Assembly: GCF_002019645.1 (NCBI RefSeq)
Contig: NZ_KV917374.1
Span: 405,148-469,147, forward strand
Length of the DNA: 64,000 nucleotides
Origin: Litchfieldia alkalitelluris
GTDB taxonomy: Bacteria; Bacillota; Bacilli; Bacillales; Bacillaceae_L
Direction: 5' to 3'
The position numbers and the translations under genes are program-made. Shown piece after piece: positions 17,001-59,269 of the stretch. The notes below the pieces were generated by a model. The model ran no database searches and had not been told where the DNA came from. It saw only the letters and a program-made list of their open reading frames with translations. Position 1 is the first letter of the stretch. The number at the start of each line of letters is the position of its first letter.

Positions 17001-17588
17001 GTTAACGGTGAGGAAGCATTTAACGGACAAGATTTCCCGAATTTATTTACAACAACTGATGGTGTATTTGCTTTAGGTGTTAACTACTGGGATACTCCAT
17101 ATAAAGGATTAATGGATGATTTACGCATCTATAATAACTCAGTTCTTTCTAATGAAGAGGTAAATGCATACTACACAAGTGTAGTTGGCGATGGTGAAGA
17201 TCCAGGCACAGGAGATCCAGGAACTGAGGATCCAGGCACAGGAGATCCAGGAACTGAGGATCCAGGCACAGGAGATCCAGGAACTGAAGATCCAGGCACA
17301 GGAGATCCAGGAACTGAGGATCCAGGCACAGAAGATCCAGGAACTGAGGATCCAGGCACAGGTGATCCAGGAACTGAAGATCCGGGCACAGAAGATCCAG
17401 GAACTGAGGATCCAGGCACGGAAGACCCAAGTACTGAGGATCCGGGTACAGAAGATCCTAAAGATGGTAATGAATTGCCTAATACAGCAACCAATCAATA
17501 TAATTTATTAGCATTAGGAGTATTATTATTAATCATAGGATCTGGTGTGATCTTTATTCTAAGAAAGAGAATAAAACTATTAAATTAA
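14007..17588 (+). CDS. cell-wall-anchored GH43 endo-arabinanase, multi-domain
   Basis: A 1193-residue secreted enzyme. Domains in order: signal peptide (1 to about 27); GH43 propeller (about 35-440) with Asp45 (VHDPSIIKD), Asp230 (AIDANILYDENG) and Glu296 (SAEGTYAVYD) in the triad positions of arabinan endo-1,5-alpha-L-arabinosidases; a small C-terminal barrel (about 445-550); an Ig-like module (about 555-640); two LamG/concanavalin-like modules (about 650-850 and 852-1055) similar to each other; a Asp-Pro-Gly-Thr spacer (about 1065-1152); then the sorting signal LPNTA (1157-1161), a membrane span and RKRIKLLN. It would cut arabinan at the cell surface, with sortase attachment to peptidoglycan. 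No sortase gene is in the window. ATG start follows AAAAGGAGAAGGTTAA. Confidence 0.9.
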   Translation: MNKSSLLRCTLVFFMLMSLLPSNTLGSEQTGEAEALTFENASVHDPSIIKDHKTGNYYVFGSHIAAAKSTDLINWQNFTNGYSTPNNTLYGDLSSNLAGSFEWAGEDDSDSTGGYAVWAPDIFWNKDYLNEDGTKGAYMMYYSVSSTYIRSAIGIAVSKDIEGPFEYVDTIIYSGFTNVEAYDRNSTVNKHWSNTNISDLIDEGVIKEVNPEWFTSSGAFNNKLYTNAIDANILYDENGKLWMTYGSWSGGTFILELDKATGQPMYPGEDGQTEDGRMIDRYFGTKIASGYGRSAEGTYAVYDKEAGYYYLYITYGGLASDGGYQMRQFRSENIEGPYVDAEGNDAVFPESFDLGVGNFPGNDDHKDIGNKMIGNFLFKRDLGEPGTGIGTGYKSPGHNSYFIDSEAGKEFFVTHTRFPGQGEMHEVRVHQAFKNSEKWPVPTPYRYAGETIETVSEANVLGDYKFINHGKEITGDLTESTWVKLNADQTISGSVTGTWKLYDNNRAELTIDNEGTYDGVFISQYDPTSESWVMTFSAMSNEGIVIWGSHVDATSDEELVQAIKQELSTIFPSNVISNLTLPTEATRGTVISWESSNPEVVSTEGVVTRPSFGSEDAVVDLTATITLGDVTETLSITVTVLAEEEGGLSAFYDFSNGFKNRSGNKADATVTGDRINNQGGEITLVDGVVGQAAKFDGKSGLRLADGLITGDTYSVSLWLKPEAITEFTTSFFGAETENNWISFVPKTSWGNTMVWSHNGEQWYDAVTDTTIPVGEWSHVTLTADKGNVVFYINGEAKYTGSNFPDVFTSIDAVFGLGVNYWDVPFQGLMDEVRVYDGISLPEVEVQSLYQNPDGLTANYDFEENLADVTENNTDGTITGNFIDNTGGSISYAEGITGKAAVFNGTSGVRLPDGLISSNSYSVSLWLKPEELTQYTTTFFGGRTNNNWLSLVPFGPGAGETMVWSGSDPWYDATTGTQIPTNEWTHLTFTVDNGNIIVYVNGEEAFNGQDFPNLFTTTDGVFALGVNYWDTPYKGLMDDLRIYNNSVLSNEEVNAYYTSVVGDGEDPGTGDPGTEDPGTGDPGTEDPGTGDPGTEDPGTGDPGTEDPGTEDPGTEDPGTGDPGTEDPGTEDPGTEDPGTEDPSTEDPGTEDPKDGNELPNTATNQYNLLALGVLLLIIGSGVIFILRKRIKLLN
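17199..17460 (+). repeat. 30-bp tandem repeat encoding Asp-Pro-Gly-Thr-Gly/Glu spacer
   Basis: About nine imperfect copies of a 30-base unit built of two 15-base halves, reading GATCCAGGCACAGGA and GATCCAGGAACTGAG. In frame they give DPGTGDPGTE units that place the enzyme away from the wall. Copies in the first half are nearly identical; later copies vary at wobble positions and swap Gly for Glu. Open frames on the other strand here are artefacts of the repeat. Confidence 0.95.
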
Positions 17589-34029: not shown

Positions 34030-34820
34030 TGGGCTGTGGGATCCGGAGTGAGTGAAGAAAAGTTCGGCGGGAGGCCTCAGGAGTGATTTAGACCAAAGAA
34101 ATCCGGCGGGAGATCTTCACGAACAGAGTCCACCATAGAAATGCGGCGAGTAATGGGGAAAATCGGGCCAAAAAGAAAGTGAATCCGGCGGGTTGGAAGG
34201 AAAATGCGGCGGGAGGCTTTCACGGAGAGAGTCCCAGCGAAGAAATGCGGCGAGTAATGGGGAAAATCGGGCCAAAAAGAAAGTAAATGCGGCGGGTTGG
34301 AAGGAAAATGCGGCGTGAGGCTTTCGCGGAGAGAGCCCCAGCGAAGAAATGCGGCGGGAATGAAGGAAAATGCGGCGTGAGGCTTTCGCGGAGAGAGCCC
34401 CAGCGAAGAAATGCGGCGAGAAATGGGGGAAATCGGGCCGAAAAGAAAGTAAATGCGGCGGGTGGCTTTCGCGGAGAGAGCCCCAGCGAAGAAATGCGGC
34501 GAAGAAATGGGGAAAATCGGGCCGAAAAGAAAGTGAGTTCGGCGGGAATGAAGGAAAATGCGGCGGAAGGTCTTCACGTAGAGAGTCCCACCAAAGAAAT
34601 GCGGCGAGAAATGGAAAAAATCGGGCCGAAAAGAAAGCGAATCCGGCGGGGATGAAGGAAAATGCGGCGGGTGATCTTCACGTAGAGATTCCCAGCGAAG
34701 AAATGCGGCGAGAAATGGGCAAAATCGGGCCAAAAAGAAAGTGAATCCGGCGGTTTGGAAGGAAAATGCGGCGGGAGGTCTTCACGTAGAGATTCCCACC
34801 AAAGAAATGCGGCGAGTAAT
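34030..34820. repeat. GC-rich imperfect tandem array (ATGCGGCG units)
   Basis: About 790 bases built of a degenerate unit of roughly 100-130 bases, about seven copies. Recurring blocks are GAAATGCGGCGAG, AATGGGGAAAATCGGGCC, AAAAAGAAAGTGAATCCGGC, GGTTGGAAGGAAAATGCGGC and CTTCACGGAGAGAGTCCCAG. Some units lack blocks, e.g. near 34340-34380 the AATCGGGCC block is skipped. GC content is far above the flanks. Open frames on both strands (up to about 218 codons) exist only because stop codons are rare in GC-rich purine-biased repeats. No transposase or integrase flanks it. Confidence 0.9.
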
Positions 34821-40321: not shown

Positions 40322-41743
40322 GTGAAAACTGTATTAATCAGAAATGCTAGAAATATTATTACGATGGATGAAGAGAGAAGCCAATTCCCTGGAGGAAGCA
40401 TCTATATTGAAGGACAGGAAATTAAAGCGATTGGTGTGGATCTACCATATGAAACAGCGGATGAAATCATCGATGCCAGAAATCAAATCATTTATCCTGG
40501 TTTAATCAATACACATCATCATTTATATCAGACGTTTACTCGGAATATCCCTTTGGCTCAAAACTGTGAATTATTTGATTGGTTGATTACCCTTTATGAT
40601 ATTTGGCGTCACATTCGACCAGAAGATGTTTATTTAAGTGCTGCTGTTGGTCTAGGTGAACTATTAAAAAGTGGCTGCACAACTGCTGCAGATCACTTCT
40701 ATGTATTTCCAAATGGTGTCTCAGGAGAATTAATTGATGAAGAAATACGTGCGGCCCATGATTTAGGAATCCGCTTCTTCCCAACAAGAGGCTCTATGAG
40801 TCTCGGAAGATCAAAGGGAGGACTTCCGCCTGATGAGGTTGTGCAAACAGAAGATGTTATCCTAAAAGATACGATGAGAGTAATTGAAACCTATCATGAT
40901 CCAAGTCCATTTTCAATGGTACGAGTGGGTGTGGCTCCGTGCTCTCCATTTTCGGTAAGTAAGGATTTATTAATTGAGTCATCTCGTTTAGCGAGAAGCT
41001 ACGGAGTAAGAATGCATACACATTTAGCCGAAACTCAGGATGAAGAGCATTTTTGTCTTGAAAAGCTAGGAATGAGACCATTAGAGCTGATGGAGCAAAC
41101 AGGATGGGTGGGAAATGACGTATGGTTCGCTCATGGAATTTGGTTTAATGAACAAGAAATTGTAAAACTTGGAACATGTGGCTGTGGGGTGGCACATTGC
41201 CCAAGTAGTAATATGAAAATGAAGTCAGGCGTCATGCCGATTATGGAAATGTTGAAAAAAGGTGTGAAAGTTGGTCTCGGCGTGGATGGTTCAGCTTCTA
41301 ATGATTCTTCTAATATGTTAATGGAACTGAAAATTATGAATCTCCTCCATAATCTCAAGCACGGCACAAAGGCCCTTAGTGCGGAAGACTGTTTGTATAT
41401 TGCGACAAAAGGTTCCTCAAAGGTACTTGGGTGGGAAGATTCGATCGGATCATTAGAGGTAGGCAAGGCGGCCGACTTATTTATGATCAATGCCAATAGA
41501 ATGGAGTTTGCTGGAGCCTTGTTTGATGATGCAGCATTACCGATCTTAACAGGAACACCACAGGTAGAGAGAACCATTGTGGGAGGGAAAACAGTGGTGA
41601 AGGACGGGAGACTCGTATCTATCAATGAAGAGCAGTTGGCCGTTTCTGCTCAGAAAGCAGCAGCAAGGATGCTGGAGACTGCATCAAAGCATATGAATAA
41701 AAATTATAAAAAATCCCGAATGAAAAAATTAAATTTTAGATAA
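40322..41743 (+). CDS. 8-oxoguanine deaminase-like amidohydrolase
   Basis: 473 residues of the metal-dependent amidohydrolase superfamily. The metal ligands are visible in GLINTHHHLYQ, in MHTHLAETQDEE and in LGVDGSASND. The protein resembles 8-oxoguanine deaminase and hydroxydechloroatrazine ethylaminohydrolase more than classical guanine deaminase. 8-Oxoguanine deaminase yields urate and ammonia, which fits the ureide genes downstream; the exact substrate is inferred. The start is GTG at 40322, after AAAGGTGATGTGA. It is monocistronic, or read with the ABC genes after a 355-base gap. Confidence 0.8.
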   Translation: MKTVLIRNARNIITMDEERSQFPGGSIYIEGQEIKAIGVDLPYETADEIIDARNQIIYPGLINTHHHLYQTFTRNIPLAQNCELFDWLITLYDIWRHIRPEDVYLSAAVGLGELLKSGCTTAADHFYVFPNGVSGELIDEEIRAAHDLGIRFFPTRGSMSLGRSKGGLPPDEVVQTEDVILKDTMRVIETYHDPSPFSMVRVGVAPCSPFSVSKDLLIESSRLARSYGVRMHTHLAETQDEEHFCLEKLGMRPLELMEQTGWVGNDVWFAHGIWFNEQEIVKLGTCGCGVAHCPSSNMKMKSGVMPIMEMLKKGVKVGLGVDGSASNDSSNMLMELKIMNLLHNLKHGTKALSAEDCLYIATKGSSKVLGWEDSIGSLEVGKAADLFMINANRMEFAGALFDDAALPILTGTPQVERTIVGGKTVVKDGRLVSINEEQLAVSAQKAAARMLETASKHMNKNYKKSRMKKLNFR

Positions 41744-43768: not shown

Positions 43769-44785
43769 ATGAAAAAGCTATTAGAATGGAAGAAGTCGAG
43801 TATCGCAATACTGAGTATCATAGTAGTGCTAATGTTAGCTGCTTGTTCAAGTGAAGATGCTGGAGGTTCAACAGGAGATTCCGCTGACTCTGAATCGGTT
43901 GATTCTGTTAAACTTGTATTAAACTGGTTTGCAAAAGCGCAGCATGGTGGTGTTTATGCTGCACAAGAACAAGGGTACTTTGAAGAAAACGGCTTAGATG
44001 TAACAATTGAACCAGGTGGCCCTCAAGTATCATCCATTCAAATGGTTGCATCTGGTAGTGCACAATTCGGTTTAGCGCATGCCGATCAAATGGTAATTGC
44101 TCGTAATCAAGGCATCGAATTAGTAGCGGTTGCTGCTGCAATGCAAGGAAGTCCACAAGCTTGGATGTTTCATAAAGGCCAAGAAATTGATGAGTTTGAA
44201 GACTTAAATGGAAGAACCGTGTTTATTCAACCAGGTATTACATATTGGGATTACTTAAAAGGGGAATACGATCTTAGTGGTGCAAAGGAAGTAGCGTATA
44301 CTGGTCAGCATGTGAATTTCATGGATGATGAAACATCTGTTACTCAAGCATTCGTGACTTCTGAGCCATATTTCATGGAGTTAGAAAATGTTGAAACAGA
44401 AACGATGTTAATTTCTGAATCAGGCTATGACCCTTATAATGTTGTTTTATATGTTACAAAGGAGTACTTAGAAGAAAATAAGGATCAAGTTCAAAAGTTT
44501 GTTACTGCTTTTGTTGAAGGCTGGAATTACTATAAAGAGTCTCCTGATGAAATCACAAAGGCTATTAATGAAGCAAATACTGATATTGCACTCGAAGCCC
44601 TTGAATTTGAGCAAACATCACAAGCTGAGTTTGTATATGGCGGAGATGCTGCCGAACATGGTGTCGGGTAGATGTCAGAAGAAAGATGGAGTACACTGAT
44701 TGACCAACTATTTGAGTTAGGTTTGCTTGAGGAAAAATTTGATCCAGCTAGTATCTTTTCAACGGAATTTTTACCTAAAAATTAA
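43769..44785 (+). pseudogene. ABC substrate-binding lipoprotein (NMT1/SsuA-like) with in-frame amber codon
   Basis: The ATG at 43769 follows AAAAGGGGATTAGTAT. The product has a lipoprotein signal with lipobox LAAC, then KLVLNWFAKAQHGGVYAAQE, the NMT1/THI5-like beginning, and TYWDYLKGEY. Codon 301 (44669-44671) is TAG. The same frame continues after it for 37 more codons, reading MSEERWSTLIDQLFELGLLE up to LPKN and a TAA at 44785. That tail is the usual C-terminal helix of the family, so the TAG is an internal nonsense codon. The truncated 300-residue form may still fold. A sequencing error or readthrough are alternatives. Confidence 0.8.
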
Positions 44786-44900: not shown

Positions 44901-44967
44901 GTGTTGTCTAAGACGGTTTAAGAGTAACATTGTATACGAAAATAGCCAAAATTAATAAAACAGGAAT

Positions 44968-44998
44968 GTGCCTGGCATCTGTAATTGGTGCCTGGCAC
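44968..44998 (+). repeat. direct repeat GTGCCTGGCA
   Basis: GTGCCTGGCATCT and GTGCCTGGCACTT, 20 bases apart, directly ahead of the ribosome binding site of the amidase gene. Each is nearly self-complementary (GTGCC...GGCAC). This motif is known as a short dispersed repeat in many Firmicutes. Confidence 0.7.
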
Positions 44999-45021
44999 TT
45001 TGCCATTTTGGAGGGAAGAAA

Positions 45022-46197
45022 ATGAAGGATCGTTTTAATGCATATATGGATATAGACGTAGCGATTGAACCTATAGAATCAGGAAAATTAGACGGATTAA
45101 CATTTTCAGTAAAAGATGTATTTGCAATTGAAGGTCACCGTAATACAGCAGGTAATCCTGATTATTTAAGAACTCATCAGCCTTCAAATTTTACAGCTCC
45201 TGTGATTACTGCTTTGCTTAAAGATGGGGCAATTCTGAAAGGCACTACACATACCGATGAGCTTATGTATAGTTTGAATGGAGAAAATTTTCACTATGGT
45301 ACACCAGTTAATCCTAAAGCACCTGATCATATTCCTGGTGGATCTTCAAGTGGATCCGCTGTAGCAGTTGCAGGAGAGTCCGTTGATTTTGCACTAGGAA
45401 CAGATACAGGAGGGTCTGTCCGAGTTCCTTCTTCGTATTGTGGGATTTATGGTATCAGGCCAACACACGGTTTGGTGGATATCAAAGGAGTCATCCCTTT
45501 AGCCGATAGCTTTGATACAGTAGGTTGGATGGCAAGAAGTCCCGAAATTCTTCAAATGGTTGGAGAAGTCCTGATAGAAGAATCAAGTGAAGATACTAGT
45601 AAACCTTTCAAGCGTTTAATTTATCCTAATGATGCGTGGGAGTTAGTTCTTAATGACCAAATTGGTATATCGCTAGAAGCATTTTTACCTAACTTAAAGG
45701 CAGTTTGTTTGGAATTTGAGGAAATCAAACTGTCGAAGGAGGGACTTGGTGAATGGACAAATACCTTTCGGGTACTACAAGCCATGGAAATTTGGGAAGC
45801 CCATAAAGAATGGATAGAGAAGGAACATCCTACATTTGGTCCAGGGATTAAAGACCGGTTTGAATGGGCCAGTACGCTAAAAAAAGATGAACATAAGCAT
45901 AAGTTTTATTTTCGGGAAAAAATAAGTGAATATATGGTACAGGTTTTAGGAGAGGACGGGATATTGGTCATTCCAACTGCACCTGGAATTGCGCCAATAA
46001 AGAATCTTCCATCCGACGAGCTTGAGGAATACCGCTCACGGGCGATGAAATTAACTTGTATTGCAGGATTAGCCGGTTTACCCCAAGTGACTTTGCCTGT
46101 AGGAGAGTATCATGGGAAGCCTGTTGGGCTATCTTTAATTGCAAATCGTAATAAGGATTTGCAGTTATTGCAATTTGTGAATGAGTTGAGTAAATAG
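45022..46197 (+). CDS. amidase-signature family hydrolase
   Basis: 391 residues. The Ser-cisSer-Lys triad is readable: Lys in TFSVKDVFAIEG, the cis Ser in PGGSSSGSAVAV and the nucleophile in GTDTGGSVRVPSS. The family hydrolyses amides, ureides or allophanate. It ends convergently with pucG, a place where an enzyme handling the oxalurate or oxamate made by ureidoglycine transamination would fit (inference). Start is the ATG at 45022, after TTTTGGAGGGAAGAA; an earlier ATG at 44968 lies within the GTGCCTGGCA repeat and lacks a site. Confidence 0.88.
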   Translation: MKDRFNAYMDIDVAIEPIESGKLDGLTFSVKDVFAIEGHRNTAGNPDYLRTHQPSNFTAPVITALLKDGAILKGTTHTDELMYSLNGENFHYGTPVNPKAPDHIPGGSSSGSAVAVAGESVDFALGTDTGGSVRVPSSYCGIYGIRPTHGLVDIKGVIPLADSFDTVGWMARSPEILQMVGEVLIEESSEDTSKPFKRLIYPNDAWELVLNDQIGISLEAFLPNLKAVCLEFEEIKLSKEGLGEWTNTFRVLQAMEIWEAHKEWIEKEHPTFGPGIKDRFEWASTLKKDEHKHKFYFREKISEYMVQVLGEDGILVIPTAPGIAPIKNLPSDELEEYRSRAMKLTCIAGLAGLPQVTLPVGEYHGKPVGLSLIANRNKDLQLLQFVNELSK

Positions 46198-57032: not shown

Positions 57033-59269
57033 ATGAAAGAAAAATGGAGAAATGTTATAGTACCTTCCTTAAAAAAAGGAAAATGGTTAACAGTTGTAGT
57101 TTGGATAGTAGCTGTGGGGTTACTGTCTGCTATTTTTCCCTCAGCAGATTCAGAAAAGAATGAAAAGGCTGAGGTGTTTTTAAAAGAAACGGAATCAATG
57201 AAGGCTGAGAAGTTACTAGAAGAAGAATTCCGAATGAGAATGGCCTACCAGCATTGCTTACTTGGCACAGGTCAGAGGGTTTAGAGGTTGAAGATCTACA
57301 AGGGATCCAACAACTTGCTAAACAATTAAACGAAGATCCAATTGAACAAGGAATGGTGCCACCAATTCACTTAATGCCAACGGAAGTAATAATGCAACAG
57401 GTTTCACAAGACGGTACCACCTTCGTCCTCCCTGTTCTATTCGCTGAAAACATAGAGACGAGTGAGATCAGCGACGGACTTGTTCAAATAGAACAAGTAG
57501 CAACGGATATATTCTCTAAAAATCCGTTTGATGTTAGTGTTGAAAGTAATCAACTACTTGTTAGAGCAACAGGACCTGCTGGGGTTTCAGTTGACGCAAC
57601 GGAATTATTCAGCCAAGGAGATCTTTCTCTTCTTATCGGGACGGTAATCATTGTGTTAGTCATCTTGTTAATCATTTATCGATCCCCTATATTAGCATTA
57701 ATTCCACTAGTAAGCGTTGGGGTTGCTTATTCAGTGATAAGTCCAATATTAGGAGCAATGTCCAATGTAGGATGGATTGAATATGATTCCCAAGCAATCG
57801 CAATAATGACTGTATTATTGTTTGGTGCTGGGACTGATTACTGTTTATTTCTTATCTCAAATTATCGAAAACTGTTAAAAGTTGAAGCAAATAAATATAT
57901 TGCACTTAAAGAAGCTTTTGCATCTTCTTGGGGAGCAATTAGTATGAGTGGGCTTACTGTAGTAGCGGCGCTTATTGTTTTGTTGGTAGCAGATTATGGA
58001 GCCATTCATAGATTCGCCATTCCTTTTAGTGTAGCGATTTTAATTATGATGATTGCAAGCTTAACTCTTGTTCCAGCGATATTATTGATTCTTGGAAGAG
58101 TATCATTTTTCCCGTTTATTCCTAGAACACCAGAGATGCTTAGAGAAAAGGCGAATATGAGTGGAAAAGAGTTCAAGGTGAAAAGTCCTGAGCCGAAGAT
58201 TGGGTCAACAATCGGGCGGTTAGTAACAACTCATCCTTGGAAGGTTACCATTATAACGACCGCTGTTTTAGTGATATTCTCTTTCTATTCAACAAAGGTA
58301 GAACTGACTTATGACACACTATCATCATTCCCTGAGGATATGCCATCTCGGGAAGGCTTTACTTTACTTACGAATCACTTTAATTCAGGTGAATTAGCAC
58401 CAGTTAGTGTTATTGTAGAATCAGATCAGGAAGGTGCAGTTCGCCGGGTGCTTGAGCAGCTTTCTTATATATCTCAGGTATCTGATGAAGTAATTAGAGG
58501 AGAGAATAATAGTCAACTATTAAAATATGAAGTAGAACTCAATGTCAACCCATATTCAAATGAAGCCATGAGCTATATTCCGCAAATTAAGCAAATATTG
58601 ATAGAGCACCTAAAGAGCTTAGGTGTTTCGGAGCCAGAAGAGAAGGTCTGGATTGGCGGCCAAACAGCAGAGCAATATGATACAAGTATGGTTACCAAGC
58701 AAGATGAAAAACTAGTTGTGCCAATTGTTATCATTCTAATTTTCTTGTTACTGCTTGTGTATTTAAGATCGATTGTTGCAACTGTATACTTAGTTGCGAC
58801 CGTCATTTTATCGTATTTTGGTGCTTTGGGATTAGGATGGATTATTCTGCACTACGGTTTTGGTGTTGAAGCGATACAAGGTTTTATTCCGCTATATGCA
58901 TTTGTATTTATTGTTGCTCTTGGAGAAGATTATAATATTTTTATGATCTCAAGTATTTGGAAGAAAAGTAAGAAGAAGCCTTTGCTTCAAGCAATCAAAG
59001 AAGGTGTTGCAGAGACGGGTGGAGTCATTACGTCAGCAGGTCTGATTTTAGCAGGAACGTTTGCGGTTTTAACCACCCTGCCGATCCAAATTCTTGTTCA
59101 CTTCGGTACAATCACAGCAATCGGAGTGCTATTAGATACGTTCATTGTTCGCCCCTTTTTAGTACCTGCAATTACGGTGTTATTAGGAAAATGGGCATTC
59201 TGGCCGTCTAAAAAGCAGATGAAGTCAGTTGAAGTCAATTCAAGTAAACAAGCAAATGCTAGTCAATAA
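57033..59269 (+). pseudogene. MMPL/RND-type transporter, frameshifted near the N-terminus
   Basis: The ATG at 57033 (after GGGAGTGGGGATAATC) opens a frame with the first membrane span and EKLLEEEF, then at about 57228 the frame is off by one: CGAATGAGAATGGCCTACCA in the next frame reads PNENGLPALLTWHRSEGLEV and joins directly to the long frame to 59269. One missing C in GAATTCCCG would restore a protein of about 746 residues with two MMPL domains and 11-12 spans. The family exports lipids or drugs. If the shift is real, only the downstream part could be made, from a poor start; a sequencing error is possible. Confidence 0.82.

Follow-up and report, generated by a model that had tools for sequence, protein, structure and literature searches.

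A private in-frame TAG probably truncates the binding protein of an ABC importer linked to purine or ureide catabolism in Litchfieldia alkalitelluris

Introduction

Pyrrolysine represents a recoding of UAG and serves here as a comparison for a bacterial gene with UAG inside its conserved frame. In-frame stop codons of a more ordinary kind are, according to one published study, widespread in bacterial genes and tend to persist only briefly (PMC7918605). The genes that bear them are described there as being under purifying selection on average, yet with fairly high dN/dS; some of the stops are argued to be tolerated, and readthrough is proposed for some (PMC7918605). Here we analyze a stretch of 64,000 nucleotides from Litchfieldia alkalitelluris (contig NZ_KV917374.1, positions 405,148 to 469,147; hereafter the window), in which the gene for the substrate-binding protein of an ABC importer is interrupted by TAG shortly before its expected end.

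The interrupted gene and its setting

Read from the ATG at 43769, the binding-protein gene has TAG as codon 301, followed by 37 sense codons and the TAA at 44783-44785, with no further stop or shift of frame in between (Table 1). The window protein matches PF09084 over residues 57-261 with 144.6 bits, against a gathering score of 20.5 (E 5.2e-42), shows a lipobox-like LAAC in its sequence at residues 23-26 and, with TAG at codon 301, is short of the complete C-terminal segment of the NMT1/THI5-like family. The codon directly 3' of the TAG is ATG. By eye, the 31 bases before this ATG contain no Shine-Dalgarno-like stretch at the usual distance; CGGAG occurs about 27 bases upstream, and the real start at 43769 is preceded by AAAAGGGGATTAGTAT. 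An earlier sequence-only reading of the window had given the position of the stop, the open frame up to the TAA, the ATG without a ribosome-binding site and an intact permease and ATPase, and our examination agrees with it on all of these, both importer partners being full-length against their same-genus orthologues.

Table 1. Features of the importer locus, in window coordinates.
Feature	Coordinates	Strand	Evidence
8-oxoguanine deaminase, upstream neighbor	40322..41743	+	NF006055, 597.8 bits (cut-off 532)
ABC transporter ATPase, intact, 261 aa	42099..42884	+	PF00005, E 6e-32; length equal to same-genus orthologues
ABC transporter permease, intact, 291 aa	42871..43746	+	PF00528, E 2.6e-28; full length against orthologues
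NMT1/THI5-like lipoprotein substrate-binding protein, cut to 300 aa	43769..44671	+	ORF; PF09084; lipobox-like LAAC
Premature in-frame TAG, where almost every relative examined has tyrosine	44669..44671	+	Alignment and codons of relatives
Orphaned C-terminal tail, 37 codons, still conserved	44672..44782	+	Homology to orthologues
TAA where orthologues end	44783..44785	+	Sequence; ends of orthologues
Amidase, downstream neighbor	45022..46197	+	NF006169, 483.6 bits (cut-off 391)

As is expected of an NMT1/THI5-like protein, the gene stands in an operon with a matching permease and ATPase. Two same-genus loci (from L. salsa and Bacillus sp. PS06, assigned by coding sequences identical to the named records) share the order ATPase, permease, binding protein and amidase, with 8-oxoguanine deaminase upstream, and their ATPases and permeases are 88.5-89.6% and 85.4-86.7% identical to those of the window. 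ATPase and permease adjoin the orthologue in 14 of 15 loci taken from named genomes and are absent from the fetched flanks of the other one (L028). Further out lie genes for an allantoate deiminase, an OHCU decarboxylase, a hydroxyisourate hydrolase and an aminotransferase that we take to be PucG-like, the models that it matched staying below their cut-offs; the aminotransferase, OHCU decarboxylase or hydroxyisourate hydrolase recurs within the fetched flanks at 7 of the 15 loci (L017, L018, L021, L025, L026, L028 and L029). Because these neighbors are genes of purine and ureide catabolism, the substrate of the importer is likely a purine or ureide, a class assignment made from gene content.

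Between the binding protein and the amidase, two copies of GTGCCTGGCA occur at 44961-45001. The amidase frame opens after a gap of about 173 bases in the window, compared with about 52 bases for L. salsa and 215 for PS06.

The stop column in relatives

Two sets of loci from relatives were compared at the TAG column, and a stop occurs in none of those examined. Tyrosine occupies the column at all 15 named-genome loci, encoded by TAT in 12 and TAC in 3. An order-wide draw, in which at most five candidates were scored per genome, went from 396 genomes to 30 genomes with 35 matches. One of these is the window's own; loci were available for 29 of the remaining 34, and all 29 were examined, one of them (L143) ending before the TAG column; the five second copies listed without a locus were left out at the column and have no internal stops by the listing. 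The 28 covering loci comprise 25 with tyrosine, 3 with histidine and none with a stop, some of the order-wide matches being only 38-47% identical and perhaps belonging to other transporters of the family. The two sets may overlap in species, and L007 and L008 are repeats of L017 and L018. Among the 35 order-level matches, in-frame stops are found only in the window's gene and in a partial copy lying on the edge of its contig (G181). At E 1e-60, 3 of 17 same-family genomes match, all of the genus, and no match was found in same-family genomes outside the genus among those 17. Judged from these sequences, the TAG is private to this genome among the relatives examined, in collections that hold one genome per species. 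The absence of the stop from relatives is what a recent nonsense pseudogene leads one to expect; UAG conserved across species at the site, the expectation under recoding, is not seen. The earlier suggestion that the correct codon might be one such as CAG or GAG finds no backing at a column of TAT or TAC in 15 of 15 loci and of tyrosine (25) or histidine (3) in the 28.

The tail as the family C-terminus

An open run of 37 codons is by itself not unusual. We nevertheless reject a chance open frame behind a normal stop, because the tail is homologous to orthologues over its whole length: by hand count on the alignment, 29 of 36 aligned residues (81%) are identical to L. salsa, and in both same-genus loci the protein continues GVGYMTE(E/D)RWS...EFL. 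By this homology, the 37 codons encode the authentic C-terminus of the family. The C-terminal helix that had been proposed for the tail finds support in the AlphaFold model of the L. salsa orthologue, in which residues 309-321 are predicted to be helical.

Age of the stop and constraint on the tail

Against the two sister loci, dN/dS is 0.078 and 0.123 for the tail, far below 1, and 0.035 and 0.037 for the body of the gene, compared with 0.053 (tail) and 0.029 (body) between the sisters themselves; against the outgroup L019 tail dS is saturated and gives no ratio. Of the 37 tail columns, 4 carry a residue private to the window, 3 one private to PS06 and 1 one private to L. salsa; for the 260 body columns the corresponding counts are 9, 8 and 9. 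We tested for relaxed constraint in the tail by scoring, at columns where three relatives agree, whether the window differs; 2 of 25 tail columns and 4 of 182 body columns do, which is not significant (Fisher p 0.155). Body dS against both sisters (1.72 and 1.56) is near saturation, and the branch is therefore long. The frame that remains is little decayed, as expected of a recent nonsense pseudogene, and since the tail in particular has hardly decayed, the stop is probably recent on the scale of the branch. Continued translation of the tail would give the same low dN/dS, and these data do not separate it from a young stop.

Broken genes elsewhere and the possibility of a wrong base

We compared the surrounding genome with L. 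salsa, from which 349 ORFs of at least 100 aa were taken; 41 that overlapped longer ORFs were dropped and 308 kept. A best match of at least 55% identity was found for 202 of the 308, within about 769 kb of genome, of which 7,743 positions are N. Whereas 182 of the 202 align over at least 90% of their length in one frame without a stop, 20 do not: the binding protein, five frame breaks (o159, o213, o233, o250 and o335), a remnant (o301), an artefact (o172), three ORFs that meet an edge or a gap in the fetched sequence, and nine that match only in part. Stops occur in five of the alignments. That of the binding protein is one clean nonsense codon; the stop of o213 lies at the edge of a frameshift, o301 is a remnant with two stops, and o159 also loses frame. 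We did not count o172 as broken, because its stop falls in an N-terminal stretch that we took to precede the true start. Broken genes at a rate of a few per 200 are unremarkable.

The frame breaks lie in the following genes. In the window, a frameshift near 57220-57235 splits an MMPL-family transporter gene (57033-59269), so that the 60-odd residues of its N-terminus are read in a different frame, 5' of a 671-aa ORF. Elsewhere, frame breaks relative to L. salsa affect an RND-type transporter (C1 near 623656), o250 (C1 near 671550) and a sigma-factor-like gene with its neighbor (C1 near 575920 and 576155). The window also contains two tandem arrays: a GC-rich, imperfect one at 34099-34820 with units of about 104 bases (AAATGCGGCG...), which opens long, probably spurious ORFs on both strands, and one at 17195-17458 with a 30-base unit (8.8 copies, 91% matches), perhaps inside a repeat-bearing protein.

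Most of the broken genes are frame breaks, which leaves assembly error possible, and the TAG itself could be a wrong base in the assembly of a gene that is whole in the living strain. An error would give just such a private stop before a conserved tail, and the other apparent frame breaks in the 769 kb, such as those of the MMPL and RND-type transporters, point the same way. Against this stand a chromosome assembled as one contig (5,426,306 bases, completeness 100%) and the 182 clean ORFs; moreover, assemblies go wrong less often by an isolated substitution than by an indel. All of these are indicators at the level of the assembly and not of the reads. On balance, we regard a wrong base as unlikely.

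Reading of UAG and the possibility of readthrough

The genome has an intact release factor 1 (561.7 bits against a cut-off of 423.25), and the PylRS model has no match in it; this model scores above cut-off in 1 of 14 control genomes. Rfam tRNA gave 110 matches, with 150 of 444 first-look candidates scored, and ARAGORN was run on the window and on 17 20-kb stretches in which all 110 of these places lie. No tRNA with anticodon CTA is among its 110 tRNAs on the 17 stretches, nor is there one in the window. One tRNA-like element (C1:4727367-4727451; L076 7367-7451) has a weak Rfam score of 39.8 bits, was not called by ARAGORN and has an extra small hairpin in place of the anticodon loop; by eye, its central part contains no CTA triplet. 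In the window, 39 ORFs of about 200 codons or more end in TAA (24), TAG (13) or TGA (2), a set compiled mechanically that may include spurious ORFs; the truncated gene counts among the 13. As far as sequence tells, UAG looks like an ordinary terminator here, and a change of genetic code or the use of pyrrolysine is unsupported, given the intact release factor 1, the regular use of TAG as a stop and the negative searches for PylRS and, on the stretches scanned, for a CTA-anticodon tRNA.

Low or regulated readthrough, by which some full-length protein would still be made, is consistent with a tail that looks constrained still by dN/dS, and for some in-frame stops in bacteria tolerance or readthrough has been argued (PMC7918605). 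The observations on decoding above count against it, as do the lack of the stop in every relative examined and the brief persistence of in-frame stops described in that paper, and we think it quite improbable. Its bolder form, in which the UAG is kept because partial readthrough limits the full-length protein to a low dose and acts as a translational dimmer on the importer of this one species, seems remote.

Structure and the likely effect of truncation

The closest PDB structures to the orthologue model are 4nmy (Z 29.7, 24% identity) and 3ix1 (Z 29.5, 22%; presumably ThiY). They align with the orthologue over its mature length, through model residues 342 and 340 of 342, and because the alignments reach so far the lost segment is part of the domain in the nearest solved relatives. 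Among the 50 PDB entries listed, three (4ntl, 9a38 and 1p99) align only to model residue 306 or 316, and the broader fold can, by these alignments, exist without such a tail. AlphaFold reached a mean pLDDT of 78.0 on the whole orthologue, compared with 60.6 on the truncated protein of the window; its runs are weak here, with alignments of 15 and 16 rows that differ in their first rows, and the five models spread over overlapping ranges (58.3-78.0 and 38.1-60.6), so the lower confidence of the truncated protein is only suggestive. We also sought a backup copy elsewhere in the genome and found none that is close, the other four matches being 22-26% identical.

That the 300-residue protein works still and the truncation is neutral is suggested by the three shorter PDB alignments and by the Pfam NMT1 match, which stops at residue 261, ahead of the tail. 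The lost part, however, holds the 13 columns from Y306 onward that are invariant across 15 orthologues, and is covered by the structural alignments to the nearest solved relatives; we consider a neutral truncation very improbable. Restart at the ATG, with a tail peptide that complements the truncated protein, has the adjacency of TAG and ATG in its favor and is very unlikely to the point of being negligible, because this methionine is an inherited residue, found after the column in 15 of 15 named-genome loci and all 28 covering order-wide loci; the ATG also has no visible ribosome-binding site, and the peptide would lack a signal sequence, whereas its partner is exported.

The most probable explanation

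The TAG is most likely a real loss-of-function mutation, a base error being next most likely. We put at about 70% the probability that a recent nonsense mutation removed a conserved C-terminal segment and thereby probably inactivated the purine/ureide-linked importer; that the base is real and that the protein is non-functional we infer in both cases from sequence. A single mutation on the species' own branch would have turned the conserved tyrosine codon into TAG. Translation would now end there, leaving a lipoprotein without the tyrosine and the 37 residues that follow it, 38 in all; in the nearest solved relatives this segment belongs to the fold. Misfolding or poor binding of the truncated protein is the probable result, and the importer has probably been deprived of its specific binding protein, the permease and ATPase not yet having decayed. 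Among the options that the sequence-only reading had left side by side, loss of the tail is favored by the relatives, stop usage, tRNAs and release factor 1, and readthrough has gained no positive evidence.

For annotation, the binding-protein gene is best marked as probably broken, and one should not assume that the strain takes up the purine- or ureide-type substrate of the cluster by way of this ABC system. If several strains were to have the stop together with an intact tail, they would offer a small natural test of in-frame stop tolerance.

Comparison with known systems

With pyrrolysine recoding the window gene shares an in-frame UAG followed by conserved coding sequence; it differs in that its genome has neither a PylRS match nor a CTA-anticodon tRNA on the stretches searched, and in that the relatives' column is tyrosine. 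With thiamin-bound 4nmy and pyrimidine-precursor-binding 3ix1 the orthologue has its fold in common, and the window protein matches PF09084; unlike them, the window protein is without its last 38 residues, and its setting is purine/ureide catabolism, not thiamin. The closest likeness is to the young bacterial pseudogenes and in-frame stops of PMC7918605: like them, the window gene has one private nonsense codon in an otherwise open and constrained frame. Set against those cases, it shows no difference beyond that of an individual case and fits the ordinary class.
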